The notes under the pieces were generated by a model. The model saw nothing but the letters and a program-made list of their open reading frames with translations. It had not been told where the DNA came from and made no database searches. This document shows positions 1 to 27,895 of a stretch of DNA of 64,000 nucleotides, piece after piece. The stretch comes from Verrucomicrobiia bacterium (GTDB lineage Bacteria > Verrucomicrobiota > Verrucomicrobiia > Verrucomicrobiales > Akkermansiaceae). Each line of letters begins with the position of its first letter. The stretch's first letter is position 1. The stretch spans positions 1 through 64,000 of the forward strand of contig JAUIJB010000007.1 of the NCBI GenBank assembly GCA_030430455.1, written 5' to 3'. Both the position numbers and the translations under genes were made by a program.

Positions 1-185
1 AAGACCTCCCTGCACGTTGATCCGATCAAGCCAGCCTGCACTCCGCTGCTGCCCCATCCTCGAAACACCCCGACTCCATTACCACGAGAACGTTAGAGCT
101 GTGGCGACCCGGGTCCGAATGACGGCGGGTCCGATTGCTCACCCGGATTCCTACCACCCCGACTGATCTCCAACAAGGCCGCGGT
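1..185. other. Spacer downstream of the putative cassette gene; possible truncated attC end
   Basis: No convincing gene lies here. If the minus-strand gene that ends at 186 is an integron cassette, its attC site should follow it, in this stretch. On the minus strand the octamer GCTCTAAC (plus-strand GTTAGAGC at 92-99) resembles the outer simple site (R'') of an attC, but no matching GTTRRRY partner is seen before the window edge. The site is therefore either cut by the edge or absent. Local base composition is less GC-rich than the rest of the window, as expected for acquired DNA. Confidence 0.2.
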
Positions 186-572
186 CTAGGGTCGACCACC
201 AGCGGCTTGTTGGCCGTTTTGTATTTTTGCTTCTTCGGCTTCGAGCAACGCCACCGCAGTCGAGCCGGCTGCGCTTCGTTCAATCGTCCTCTGGATGTAA
301 GCGCGCCGTTCGGATTCAGGCTTCGGTCGGCGCGGCAGCCCCCAGAAAAGTGGCCGATCGTATAGCGCCCAGGTCAGTCGCACCCTCGGCTTGACGTCAG
401 TCGCCGCTTCATGACCGATGATGTAAAGCGAGGAGTGAATGCTCGCCGGGAAGAACGCTGGTCCGTCGCGATCTCCAATCTGGAAGTATCCAGCCATCAG
501 AGGAGCCACTAGGAGGAGCATTCCAGCAATAGTTCCGAACCAGATAATCCGCGATGCCCTCCGGCTCTTCAT
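186..572 (-). CDS. Small hypothetical membrane protein, possible integron cassette gene
   Basis: I do not recognise this 128-residue protein. From the chosen ATG it begins with a short basic segment (KSRRASR), followed by a single hydrophobic helix at about residues 9-31. A soluble, charged tail of about 95 residues ends in an alanine/glutamate-rich segment. It is probably an inner-membrane-anchored protein with the tail outside. An upstream in-frame ATG would add 18 residues ahead of the anchor; the later start leaves the membrane segment close to the N-terminus. No clear ribosome binding site precedes either. The gene is transcribed away from the divergent integron integrase, which is the usual orientation of the first cassette, and its base composition is lower in GC than the lyase genes to the right. 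Confidence 0.5.
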   Translation of the reverse strand: MKSRRASRIIWFGTIAGMLLLVAPLMAGYFQIGDRDGPAFFPASIHSSLYIIGHEAATDVKPRVRLTWALYDRPLFWGLPRRPKPESERRAYIQRTIERSAAGSTAVALLEAEEAKIQNGQQAAGGRP

Positions 573-1086
573 TCTTGGGCCAACAGTGTATTGTGTCTCA
601 TGGGGGTATTCAGTGGATATCCCCATGGGAGGTATCTCGGCAGGATGAACTTTGGCCTGAGGGAATTCAATTCCGATTCTTGAGGAGGTGGTCTGGGGGG
701 TGCTGGCGGCAGTTCGGCGCTCGTGCGGTTACCGAGGGTCTGGTCCCCAGTCATTTGCACTCGTTCCGGTGCCTCGGTCCCTGGTCGGGGCGAAGCCGGG
801 AGGCGCTTGGCCAGCGCATCGGGTGGGGCCTGGGAGCTCTGGTGATACCTCCCGTGGGGGTATTAGGGGAATACGTCCAAGGGGGGTATCCAGTTACGGG
901 GATGTTCCATAACCTTCAAAAGGGAACCTCGGCGGGCCTTTCGGGGGCAGAGGGAGGGCGCATTCTGGCCAGGAAAAGGGCCGTTGGGCGGGGCGTTGAG
1001 GGTCTGGAGGGGGCCGCTTCGGGCCGGAGGAGGGCCCGAAGCGGGTGCTTGAGCCGGCATTTCCGGACTTTTCCGAACTCCTGACC
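573..1086. other. Intergenic region upstream of the integrase; candidate attI region with GGGGGTAT repeats
   Basis: No gene is supported in these 500-odd bases. The stretch holds repeated motifs: GGGGGTAT at 602-609, 856-863 and 882-889; GGGAGGTATC at 627-636; and its inverse GATACCTCCC at 844-853. The first and last GGGGGTAT copies share 12 of 13 bases over GGGGGTATYCAGT. In integrons the attI site lies directly upstream of intI, so these repeats could be integrase-binding or accessory sites. A near-consensus core, GTTGGCC on the minus strand at about 576-582, sits seven bases before the cassette ATG. No perfect attI core was found. Confidence 0.3.
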
Positions 1087-1115
1087 TTGACGTGTTCAGT
1101 TGAACACGCTTTATT
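1087..1115 (+). promoter_or_regulatory. Promoter of the integron integrase gene
   Basis: TTGACG at 1087-1092 matches five of six -35 bases. TTTATT at 1110-1115 matches four of six -10 bases. The spacer is exactly 17 bases. Transcription would start at about 1122, the first base of the integrase ATG, so the message may be leaderless. The spacer is almost filled by the LexA-type palindrome, the classic arrangement for SOS repression. Confidence 0.55.
1092..1107. promoter_or_regulatory. LexA-type SOS operator
   Basis: GTGTTCAGTTGAACAC is an inverted repeat with two perfect seven-base arms around a two-base centre. It contains TGTTC-N4-GAACA (1093-1106), the LexA-binding motif I recall being described for Verrucomicrobia. 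It lies between the -35 and -10 elements of the integrase promoter, so bound LexA would block transcription. SOS control of integron integrases is established for class 1 and Vibrio integrons. Confidence 0.75.
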
Positions 1116-1121
1116 TGGAGG

Positions 1122-2783
1122 ATGAAGCCATCGGACGGAGGCAATCGGGGAGGTCAGGAGGACGGCCCGGGGGGCGGGTTCTGGAAGGGATTTGCGGAGA
1201 CGCTGGCCGAGGAGGGGATTCCGGTTCCACGACGGACCTACTTCACCCACTGGGCCGAGCGGATGTTTCGCGAAATCGGGACCCGAAATCTTGACCGGCA
1301 GTCGGTCGAGGCGCACCTCAAACGTCTCGTGGAGAACACCCAGCTCGATGGCTGGCAAGCCCGCCAGGCGATCGATGCCATCCGCCTCGCCCTGTGCCGC
1401 GTCGGTCGCCGGAAGTGGGGAGACTGGGCACGGCAGATCGACTGGGGCGCCTGGCGCGAGCAGGTCCGCACGCTCGAAAAGAAGCACCCGACGCGAATGC
1501 GGGTCGCCATCAAGCCCGAGGAGTGGCTCCGCTACCACGAGAACTTCCGGGATCCCCACCCCGAGGAGGCGAAGGGCGTCCATTGGATCGAGAGCAAGGT
1601 CCGCATGGTCGCGCGGAGCGAATCGTACTCGCTGACCACGGAGAAGTCGTACTTGTCGTGGTCCGAGCGCTACGCGCGGTTCTGCTATCGGGTCCTCGGT
1701 GGTCCGGAGGCGATCCGGAAGGGAGAGTCGGTCGGCAAGTACCTCCAGTTCCTGGCAACCGTGCGCGACGTCTCGCCCGCGACCCAGAAGCAGGCGCTCA
1801 ACGCCTTGTCCTTCTTCTTCAAGAAGTGCCTCCGGATCACGGATGCCGACTTCGGGGATTTTGCGAAGGCGCGCGTCCGACAGCATATCCCGGTGGTGCT
1901 GAGCGAGGGGGAGGTCGGCCGGGTTCTCGAACGGCTCAGCGAACCCTGGCGTACCGCCGGCTGCCTGATGTACGGCAGCGGCCTGCGGGTCTCGGAGTGC
2001 ATGCGGCTGCGGGTGAAGGATCTCGACTTCGACCGCGGCCAGATCGTCCTGCGCGAGACCAAGGGCGGCCGGGAGAGGGTCGTTCCTCTGCCGCTCGCCG
2101 TGGCGAAGCCGCTCCGGGCTGCGGTCGATGCCGCACGGGAGATCCATCGCGAGGACCAGGTGCGCAAGCGGGCGAGCGTGACCCTGCCGCGTGCGCTCGA
2201 GAAGAAGTACGGCGCCTCGGCGCGGAGCTTTCCCTGGTTCTGGGTCTTTCCGGCGATGAAGGTGATTCGCGACGAGAGTGGAAAGCCGCGCCGCCACCAT
2301 CTCCATGAGAAGTCGATGCAGCGGTGCTTCCGACGCGCCGCCGACGCGGCCGGGATCGAGAAGCGCGCGACCTCCCACAGCCTGCGCCACTCATTCGCGA
2401 CCCATCTGCTGGAGAGGGGCACCGACATCCGCACCGTCCAGGACCTTCTCGGCCATGTGGACGTGAGCACCACCATGATCTATCTCCACGTCGTCCGTCA
2501 GGCCGGGGCCGGCGTGAGAAGCCCGTTGGACGGACTGCCTCTTCGAAGCGAGCCCCCAGGCAAGACCCAGCGACCTCCCCTCAGGGACCGGCCCGATGAT
2601 TCGCGGTTGGAGCCCAAGGACGGCTCGCAGGACGATCCCAAGCCGGACGGCAATGCCGATGGGGATGGTGGAGACGACGAGGATGACGAGGACGACGACG
2701 GCGGGGACGCTTGCGCGGCGGTGCGCGATGCGGTCGCCGTGTATCGCGTGGCTTCGCTTGATGAATCGCAGAAAGAAGGGTGA
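1122..2783 (+). CDS. intI: Integron integrase (IntI family tyrosine recombinase) with extended N- and C-termini
   Basis: Site-specific tyrosine recombinase that would insert and excise cassettes at attI/attC. All catalytic residues are visible: R289 in GSGLRVSE, K314, H419-S-L-R422, H445 and nucleophile Y454. The R-to-Y spacing (165) is almost that of IntI1. The IntI-specific insertion is present at about 353-405 (LPRALEKKYG, FPWFWVFP, RRHHLHE), and the family ending GAGVRSPLDGL is at 462-472. The protein is 553 residues against about 320-340 for typical IntI. The excess is an N-terminal extension of about 160 residues that looks like a second SAM-like core-binding domain ahead of the usual one (about 165-240), and an 80-residue tail with an acidic run of Asp/Glu near 516-529. 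GGAGG abuts the ATG with no spacer, and the predicted promoter would make the message leaderless; no other in-frame start fits. Confidence 0.9.
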   Translation: MKPSDGGNRGGQEDGPGGGFWKGFAETLAEEGIPVPRRTYFTHWAERMFREIGTRNLDRQSVEAHLKRLVENTQLDGWQARQAIDAIRLALCRVGRRKWGDWARQIDWGAWREQVRTLEKKHPTRMRVAIKPEEWLRYHENFRDPHPEEAKGVHWIESKVRMVARSESYSLTTEKSYLSWSERYARFCYRVLGGPEAIRKGESVGKYLQFLATVRDVSPATQKQALNALSFFFKKCLRITDADFGDFAKARVRQHIPVVLSEGEVGRVLERLSEPWRTAGCLMYGSGLRVSECMRLRVKDLDFDRGQIVLRETKGGRERVVPLPLAVAKPLRAAVDAAREIHREDQVRKRASVTLPRALEKKYGASARSFPWFWVFPAMKVIRDESGKPRRHHLHEKSMQRCFRRAADAAGIEKRATSHSLRHSFATHLLERGTDIRTVQDLLGHVDVSTTMIYLHVVRQAGAGVRSPLDGLPLRSEPPGKTQRPPLRDRPDDSRLEPKDGSQDDPKPDGNADGDGGDDEDDEDDDGGDACAAVRDAVAVYRVASLDESQKEG

Positions 2784-2910
2784 GAAGCGGCCATCTGGCG
2801 AGGCGGGTGGAGGATCCGCCGTCGCTCGTTGAACAATCGCGGGCAGGCGGCGCTTGGAGGTCGGTGAATGAGTGACCCCGTGAAGTGGCCTTTCCCCTCC
2901 GCTTCTCCGC

Positions 2911-2970
2911 TCGCCGCTCTTACTCGGCGCTCGCCGCTCTTACTCGGCGCTCGCCGCTCTTACTCGGCGC
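2911..2970. repeat. Three perfect 20-bp tandem repeats at the 3' end of the sulfatase-like gene
   Basis: The unit tcgccgctcttactcggcgc occurs three times back to back without a mismatch (2911-2930, 2931-2950, 2951-2970). The right-most copy covers the last codons and stop of the minus-strand sulfatase-like gene; the other two lie in its 3' flank. Because 20 is not a multiple of three, gain or loss of copies shifts the downstream frame but leaves the first stop intact. Confidence 0.95.
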
Positions 2971-26900: not shown

Positions 26901-27895
26901 GCGGCCCCGGCGGCACGGGCACCCTGACCGTGCGCTTCGCCCTGGGCAACGACGCGCGCAGCGGCCTGCTGGTCGTCAATGGCAACAGCGAGCCGATCAC
27001 CTTCCCGGGCACCGGCGCGTGGAACAACTGGCAGACCCTGGACGTCCCCGTCACCCTCAACCCCGGCGCGGTCAACACGATCCGCTTCGAGACCAATGGC
27101 GAGGACCTCGCCAACCTCGACGAGATCACCATCCAGCCGGCCCTCGCCGCGGTCGAGGTGAGCATCACCGCGAGCGACGACTCGGCCGGCGAGTTCGGCG
27201 CCGACCAGGCGCTCGAGTTCAGCGTCACCCGCAGCGGCAGCACAACGGCTGCGCTGGTTGTGCCGTTGGTCGCCGGAGGCTCCGCCACGGCCGGCGAGGA
27301 CTACTCCGGCTTCACCGGCAGCGTCGAGATCCCCGCCGGCCAGGCCTCGGCCCCGGTGGCCCTGACCGTGCTGGCCGACGCGCTCGCCGAGGGCAGCGAG
27401 ACGGTCCAGCTGAGCCTCGGCGCGAGCGGCGAGTTCACCGCCGGCACGCCGTCCACCGCCAGCGCCACCATCCTCGACAAGCCCTCGCAGGACGAGTGGG
27501 CTGCCACCATCGCCGACCCGGCCAAACGGGGGGCCAATGACGACGGCGATGGTGACCTGCTGGTGAACCTGCTCGAGTACTACATGGGCACCGACGCCGG
27601 CGATGCGGGCAGCCGCGGGGTGATCCGGATCGAGTCGGTCGCCACCGGCAGCTTCACCCTGCGCTTCCCGCTTGCCGCAGGGCGCGACGACGTCAGCGGC
27701 CAGCTGCTGTGGTCGACCGACCTGGGATCGTGGCAGGCCGGTGGCGTGTCCGACGGCAGCCGCACGATCACCTTCTCGGCGCCGTCCCCGGTTGCCGGTG
27801 CCGAGGACCCGAACCTGGTGGAGGTCACCGCCACCATCACCGGCGACCCGGTGAACAGCGCGGTCTTCGTCCAGCTCGAGGTCGTGTCGCCCTGA
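23924..27895 (+). CDS. Very large secreted pectate lyase with FN3, carbohydrate-binding and Calx-beta modules
   Basis: A 1323-residue exoenzyme. In order: signal peptide (about 1-25), N-terminal sandwich (VDINNNARPL), FN3-like domain (about 220-318), lyase helix from AFPGAEGYGRF (about 321) with MDHCSFGWGIDEGLS and LLAHNEGRNWSLAGG, and an EF-hand-like module DSDDDGMPDWWE/DQDGDQYTNLEEYLNW. These are followed by a cadherin-like segment, FN3 (about 855-945), a CBM6/35-like sandwich (from about 949, VEEADSLGGG), a Calx-beta domain (about 1075-1185, ATAGEDYSGFTGSVEIPAGQ), and a tail with NDDGDGDLLVNLLEYYMG. The catalytic half is related to the two tandem lyases at 4605-9110. The extra modules should tether the enzyme to pectin or the cell surface. 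It is probably transcribed with the downstream GH79 and GH2 genes. Confidence 0.88.
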   Translation: MSPITLTTRLLPLFATLVALPVAAAGLRVDINNNARPLGEGQDPSFTPWSEDYIWFPGGDSTSQTFDGVTVTFTRVGGVGSALRPSYWKAGVQSTEFDVRLTGDGIMVDDGDAGAQIEMRIAGLTPGEHSVLLYLNNWDGGTSLPAAPLDISVDGSPVINDLAPSNRVENNADATTAYLEFTASSGTDVVILVAAELGGSYTTRNVRINGFEIDTENTDDLATSPVPADGDIHADVDTGSTTLQWTAAASGADSHDVYFGTDEAAVEAATPASPEFMGNQAGTSHPVSGLDSFQPYFWRIDQVSGATTTKGNVWSFRPRRLAFPGAEGYGRFAQGGRGGAVVKVTNLNDSGPGSLRDAVKGDHGPRTVIFDVSGLITLNSDIIINGDDPPITIAGQTAPGKGICIKREQFAMSGAEDIVMRFVRGLVGKESGATQNATGMAGVNHCIMDHCSFGWGIDEGLSTRGAFNVTFQRCSLSEALNIAGHSNYGAGTRHGYAASVGGDIASLHHNLLAHNEGRNWSLAGGLDGDGFYAGRLDIFNNVVYNWRGRTTDGGAHEVNFVNNYYKRGPVGGITTLLNPQYGGFPGTQQYYMAGNVLQDGASLQTNQSALLDVGTENGGTLPQDSSPPYSATVGAPFFPSHATIHSATNAYKQVLSDVGCNLPMVDDRDARIIGETLAGSHTHSGSVSGDPGLPDTTADVGGWEDYGNEVRAANWDSDDDGMPDWWEVIHGFNPASAAGDFSESNGDQDGDQYTNLEEYLNWMAVPHVDCNHDGTVDVDLSALSRGYTASPGFVVNNVVNGTVSLIGGDTARFTPTTSANALGKFEFTVTDSAGDSMTREVGVRIIGSGSTPLAPPAPADLVATPGDGSVSLVWSPSAGADDYRVKRSTTDGSGYATIASPATTSFADTTVSNGTTYYYIVTAVNTGGESPDSAQAVATPSGPGSSDPVTLQVEEADSLGGGVSTETEHGGNGSGYVNFPTSGGFAEFQNVDGGPGGTGTLTVRFALGNDARSGLLVVNGNSEPITFPGTGAWNNWQTLDVPVTLNPGAVNTIRFETNGEDLANLDEITIQPALAAVEVSITASDDSAGEFGADQALEFSVTRSGSTTAALVVPLVAGGSATAGEDYSGFTGSVEIPAGQASAPVALTVLADALAEGSETVQLSLGASGEFTAGTPSTASATILDKPSQDEWAATIADPAKRGANDDGDGDLLVNLLEYYMGTDAGDAGSRGVIRIESVATGSFTLRFPLAAGRDDVSGQLLWSTDLGSWQAGGVSDGSRTITFSAPSPVAGAEDPNLVEVTATITGDPVNSAVFVQLEVVSP

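Follow-up and report, generated by a model that had tools for sequence, protein, structure and literature searches.

Introduction

Control of the integron integrase gene intI by the SOS response is known in Proteobacteria, where the operator is CTGT-N8-ACAG. LexA control of intI was found only by means of the beta/gamma-proteobacterial motif, and its absence elsewhere was ascribed to a lack of evolutionary time or to an incompatible LexA (Cambray et al. 2011; PMC3108266). Sedentary chromosomal integrons have already been recorded in Verrucomicrobiota, among other phyla (PMC8618304). The window, i.e. the whole 64-kb stretch of DNA that was analysed, comes from a member of this phylum (family Akkermansiaceae, "the family" below) and bears an intI gene directly preceded by a different putative operator, TGTTC-N4-GAACA. 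This is reportedly the LexA motif of Verrucomicrobia. A passage of PMC8565304, citing Erill et al. 2016, places a uracil-DNA-glycosylase-based repair system of Verrucomicrobia under SOS regulation. No report of integron integrases as members of the Verrucomicrobia LexA regulon, or of LexA control of intI in Verrucomicrobiota, was found in the openly accessible journal literature that was searched.

The integron of the window

The features of the locus are listed in Table 1. The intI product matches TIGR02249 at model positions 4-315 with 355.6 bits (cut-off 265), and the catalytic residues R289, K314, H419, R422, H445 and Y454 are invariant across its IntI clade. The protein has an N-terminal extension (residues ~1-155), the IntI core (~159-472) and an acidic C-terminal tail. 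The ~155-aa extension (window 1122-1586) is conserved within the clade. Its predicted helices at 18-103 mirror the core-binding domain at 149-236, and hhalign gave a weak match between the two (E 1.5e-4, probability 51%), which would fit a duplication of the SAM-like domain. Downstream of intI there is a sulfatase-like gene with a short tandem repeat at its 3' end, about three copies of GCTCGCCGCTCTTACTCGGC (window 2905-2970).

The covariance model used to search for attC sites was built from the dense array of a complete relative (G320). This array (L281, G320:C1:3257400-3272000) contains 25 attC-like sites in 14.6 kb, nine of which formed the training set. The sites are mostly about 125-133 nt long, some 59 nt, and their ends are like AGCGAACAAG...GACGTTCGCT. 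In the genome of the window the model detected six sites. Besides the one in Table 1 there are five, on contigs C1, C13, C58 and C104; they include one on the contig of a second intI (62.4 bits) and fragments on three contigs other than the two with intI. Rfam gave no match in the integron region.

The first cassette ORF of the window points away from intI, and its 128-aa product has no Pfam or NCBIfam match. A conserved AACAGTGT(T)ATT is located at the start of the cassette (579-592), and relatives have it in the equivalent position; the attI-position sequences matching the candidate are CCCAACAGTGTATT, CAGAACAGTGTTTATT and CACAACAGTGTTATT. Judged from its parts, a genuine integron integrase with an attC, a cassette ORF and a candidate attI beside it, the locus is a real integron. 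The genome is a fragmented metagenome-assembled one, in which the contig of the window extends about 1.1 kb beyond intI on the upstream side. Both contigs that carry an intI break ~1 kb from it on that side, as the repeats of an array would lead one to expect.

The second integron (L016, G000:C1:24949-27223) encodes an IntI of 445 aa (310 bits) and has its own perfect LexA box. Its first cassette ORF is of 188 aa, and it has an attC at 27073-27198, with the contig end just beyond. In the window, the interval between the attI candidate and intI (596-905) contains several repeats like GGGGGTATTC, GGGAGGTATC, GATACCTCCC and GGGGGGTATCC in both orientations, and relatives have GATATC-centred repeats in the corresponding interval. 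These could be sites for a further regulator or for IntI.

Table 1. Features of the window integron, and genes of the same genome directly preceded by a perfect TGTTC-N4-GAACA box
Feature	Position	Strand	Evidence or remark
attC of first cassette	85..215	-	covariance model, 69.8 bits, E 6.6e-17 without filters
First cassette ORF, 128 aa, ATG at 572	186..572	-	between attI candidate and attC
Candidate attI core, GCCAACAGTGTATT (intI orientation)	579..592	no strand	matches attI-position sequences of relatives
-35 element TTGACG of PintI	1087..1092	+	sequence; abuts operator
Putative LexA operator TGTTC-N4-GAACA, TGTTCAGTTGAACA	1093..1106	no strand	identical in motif to lexA and recA sites
-10 element TTTATT	1110..1115	+	sequence; homologues T/A/T-rich in same register
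intI, integron integrase, 553 aa	1122..2783	+	TIGR02249; Pfam PF00589 and PF13495
Box before lexA			TIGR00498; TGTTCTGGCGAACA ends 14 nt before lexA ATG
Box before recA			TIGR02012; TGTTCAAGCGAACA
Box before ssb			TIGR00621
Box before radC
Box before DNA-repair radical SAM gene			TIGR03916
Box before imuA, then imuB-like Y-family polymerase			imuA a weak match
Box before REP-associated tyrosine transposase (RAYT)	G000:C25:50615-50628 (L005:852-1487, minus)		NF047646
Box before each of the two integron integrases

The box and promoter of intI

On the plus strand, intI is preceded by TTGACG, TGTTCAGTTGAACA, CGC, TTTATT and TGGAGG, in this order, and its ATG at 1122 is 15 nt downstream of the box. 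A perfect TGTTC-N4-GAACA between TTGACG and TTTATT at 17-nt spacing, right before intI, was the core of the original prediction, and the sequence reads exactly so. The spacer is filled by the full palindrome CGTGTTCAGTTGAACACG (1091-1108), with the perfect box inside, a position suited to blocking the promoter PintI. The arms had been given as seven bases long; the dyad really has 8-bp arms and a 2-nt centre (CGTGTTCA-GT-TGAACACG). As a mere palindrome it is unremarkable, because five perfect 8+8 dyads of the same span occur in the window, versus 3.0 expected. With up to one mismatch, TGTTC-N4-GAACA has a single site in the window, the one before intI (0.78 expected).

The TTTATT hexamer is weak relative to the -10 consensus and was not among the calls of a mechanical promoter scan. 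Even so, the promoter as first read is supported by comparison, since its register is shared by 19 homologous promoters. In these, the -35 element abuts the box (T 95%, T 95%, G 89%, A 63%), a T/A/T-rich -10 begins at box +17 and the ATG is ~15 nt past the box, as in the window. The -10 element of the window ends just 6 nt before the ATG, and the intI transcript would therefore be leaderless or nearly so.

The palindrome might also be taken for the hairpin of an intrinsic terminator or attenuator upstream of intI rather than for a protein operator. Its 7-bp stem and 4-nt loop are followed by CTTTATTTGG, which yields a weak terminator-like score, although hairpins of this kind are about as numerous in shuffled sequences (mean 1.0). 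What is conserved, moreover, is the letters TGTTC and GAACA and not the stem extension or the T run, lexA and recA have this site in front of them too, and a hairpin between -35 and -10 is upstream of any transcript from PintI. A terminator is thus a highly improbable explanation.

The same motif in the predicted SOS regulon of the genome

Read as a LexA operator, the intI box belongs to a set of nine perfect TGTTC-N4-GAACA sites in the 4.22-Mb genome, versus 0.78 expected at the 69% GC of the window. The reversed pattern, searched as a control in the same 4.22 Mb, gave no site. As dinucleotide shuffles of intI upstream regions also came out near zero (see below), a chance origin of the motif is excluded. 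All nine sites are directly upstream of genes, which were identified by Pfam and NCBIfam (Table 1). The genome has two TIGR02249 proteins above the cut-off, and both are the boxed integron integrases.

The operator before intI is identical in motif to those before the genome's own lexA and recA. The original prediction had proposed that these two genes should carry the same motif, and both have TGTTC-N4-GAACA, which excludes the refuting case it had named, another motif at these promoters. Its further claim that the site equals the LexA motif of Verrucomicrobia agrees with the motif reportedly described for that phylum. Among nine genomes of the family or its order, all nine lexA promoters have the motif, six in perfect form and three with one mismatch, and the motif outnumbered the reversed pattern in all 13 genomes compared.

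These operators could in principle serve a repressor other than LexA, such as a second S24-type protein or a phage repressor. Elsewhere in the genome, the profile of the LexA DNA-binding domain does give weak HTH matches, the best with 17 bits against 78 for LexA, and two genomes elsewhere in the phylum have lexA adjoining intI. The genome encodes one profile-grade LexA, however, and the gene of that protein has the motif 14 nt before its own ATG. It is very unlikely that another repressor is the cognate protein, and LexA is the favoured one.

The RAYT gene (NF047646) has its perfect LexA box just before the start codon. This arrangement was seen in one genome only and suggests that the transposase is under SOS control.

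Conservation and placement of the box in the family

One genus of the family (g2) has genomes of 2.1-3.3 Mb. The four complete or nearly complete ones examined each match the target of the Verrucomicrobia 16S probe Ver47 three times, as would be expected of Akkermansia, and this points to Akkermansiaceae as the family; the genus of the window itself has no exact match at the probe site. IntI proteins above the cut-off were found in 82 of 260 genomes of the family. The 87 intI upstream regions of adequate length formed the base of the box counts. A perfect box is present in 30 of the 87, and a box with at most one mismatch in 54, a count in which about five attI-type look-alikes (TTTTC...GAACA, one mismatch) remain. 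Dinucleotide shuffles of these regions gave 0.0 perfect sites and 1.7 with at most one mismatch. Five other palindromes, searched in the same regions, gave no perfect sites and 1-4 with at most one mismatch, while intI coding sequences gave none and 1 of 96, respectively. The perfect boxes are spread over 19 clusters at 80% identity.

Clades were assigned on a FastTree tree of IntI cores, on which the attI-type look-alikes were left out of the box states. The box is present in all 17 assessable members of the window's IntI clade and in 16 of 18 members of the clade of the second intI. No box within one mismatch was found before 37 of 88 assessable family intI. G320 has three intI genes, two with perfect boxes and the third with a tandem pair of degraded boxes at its ATG.

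The architecture of the window is not the only one. In the second clade, what comes after the box is a T-rich stretch, with TTGAC about 8 nt further on, which places the box upstream of the presumed -35, and a few other family intI have a box overlapping the ATG (TGTTCNNATGAAC). Because the same operator is kept in different placements, this pattern argues for selection for LexA control and not for one inherited promoter.

The look-alikes point to another reading, in which the box is an IntI-binding or attI-type element used in integrase autoregulation. The attI cores of the family also contain GAACA, and attI-position sequences of relatives such as TTTTC-N4-GAACA-AGTTATT can be one mismatch from the box. 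The attI candidate of the window is, however, ~500 bp away, at 579-592, and both arms of the box are perfect and in fixed register with the promoter. In addition, lexA, recA, ssb and radC have the box and are all without attI. There is thus little chance indeed that the box is such an element.

Integrons outside the family

In the phylum sample, 109 of 388 genomes encode an IntI above the cut-off. Before 98 intI of other families there was no perfect box and one with a single mismatch, which rules out a phylum-wide box before intI. Several of these families use the same motif before lexA, and many of their genomes have no LexA match at all. Predicted LexA-box control of intI is thus lineage-specific, since 37 of 88 family intI are without a box and other families share the LexA motif without having it before intI. 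The expectation that SOS control of cassette shuffling extends to the phylum held in one part: predicted control reaches beyond the proteobacterial motif, but only in the family, as the 98 other-family intI are without the box.

Four other LexA motifs, CTGT-N8-ACAG, TATAC-N4-GTATA, CGAAC-N4-GTTCG and GTTC-N7-GTTC, gave no comparable signal before intI outside the family. A conserved TCTTCCGCCGATCA before several intI of one family (f5) was considered as a LexA site and dropped, most such genomes being without a LexA match.

At two of 112 intI loci examined, both of them outside the family, a complete lexA is directly upstream of intI and co-directional with it. In the first (L289, G217:C14:15807-17687), lexA is followed by a 9-nt gap with GGAGGTG and then by intI; a TATAC-N4-GTATA dyad covers the presumed lexA -10, and this lexA is the only LexA match of its genome. 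In the second (L290, G325:C2:832-2828, minus strand), intI starts 2 nt past the lexA stop. In each pair, the integron seems to carry an SOS repressor of its own or to share one.

Proposed mechanism

From the operator, its placement and its recurrence before SOS genes, we infer LexA binding, repression, induction by damage and recombination activity. LexA would occupy TGTTCAGTTGAACA, in the spacer of PintI, and so exclude RNA polymerase. DNA damage or incoming single-stranded DNA would activate RecA and lead to self-cleavage of LexA, after which transcription of intI would begin at its ATG or right beside it. IntI would then excise attC cassettes and insert them at attI, and shuffling would be coupled to genotoxic stress. 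In all probability, intI is under LexA repression, and DNA damage sets off cassette shuffling by way of the verrucomicrobial operator. It is also very likely, as far as sequence comparison can tell, that stress-triggered gene shuffling works in Akkermansia-type bacteria via a switch sequence of their own.

Comparison with known systems

The locus shares with sedentary chromosomal integrons (PMC8618304) an intI, an attI (here a candidate), an attC and cassettes pointing away from intI. It differs from them in its IntI, whose 553 aa include an N-terminal extension similar to a second core-binding (SAM-like) domain, and the attC ends of the family are like AGCGAAC...GTTCGCT and not the classical RYYYAAC...GTTRRRY. 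The putative operator before the window intI is the same as that reported for the Verrucomicrobia LexA regulon. In that regulon, according to the passage in PMC8565304, a uracil-DNA-glycosylase-based repair system is SOS-controlled; here, the TIGR03916 gene has a box.

In Vibrio cholerae and in class 1 integrons, intI is under SOS control and the LexA operator overlaps PintI (Guerin 2009; PMC3108266), as is predicted here. Cassette recombination is SOS-induced in those integrons, and the same logic is proposed for the family. The proteobacterial CTGT-N8-ACAG overlaps the -10, whereas TGTTC-N4-GAACA occupies the -35/-10 spacer in the window's clade; unlike the proteobacterial operator, the box is upstream of the presumed -35 in the second clade and over the ATG in a few other intI. 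Read as GTGT-N8-ACAC, the window site is two mismatches from CTGT-N8-ACAG and does not qualify as a beta/gamma-type operator. The two motifs have TGT-N8-ACA in common, and in a few relatives a box with C and G at its flanks agrees with both, so the shift from one operator to the other may have been gradual.

A verrucomicrobial operator before intI would contradict the published claim that this control exists only with the beta/gamma-proteobacterial motif. The chances are about even that SOS control of shuffling arose more than once, each time with the LexA motif of the host lineage, given at least three placements in Akkermansiaceae IntI clades and the lexA-intI pairs on G217:C14 and G325:C2. 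If this is true, the coupling of cassette shuffling to damage would have been selected for convergently, instead of being left over from beta/gamma-proteobacterial ancestry. A natural comparison for the idea that an uncontrolled integrase is costly is offered by the families that have the LexA motif but no box before intI. Compared with the proteobacterial systems, the family belongs to a distant phylum, uses another LexA motif and keeps a perfect operator in fixed promoter register, which suggests that SOS control of intI can persist or re-arise as the motif changes.
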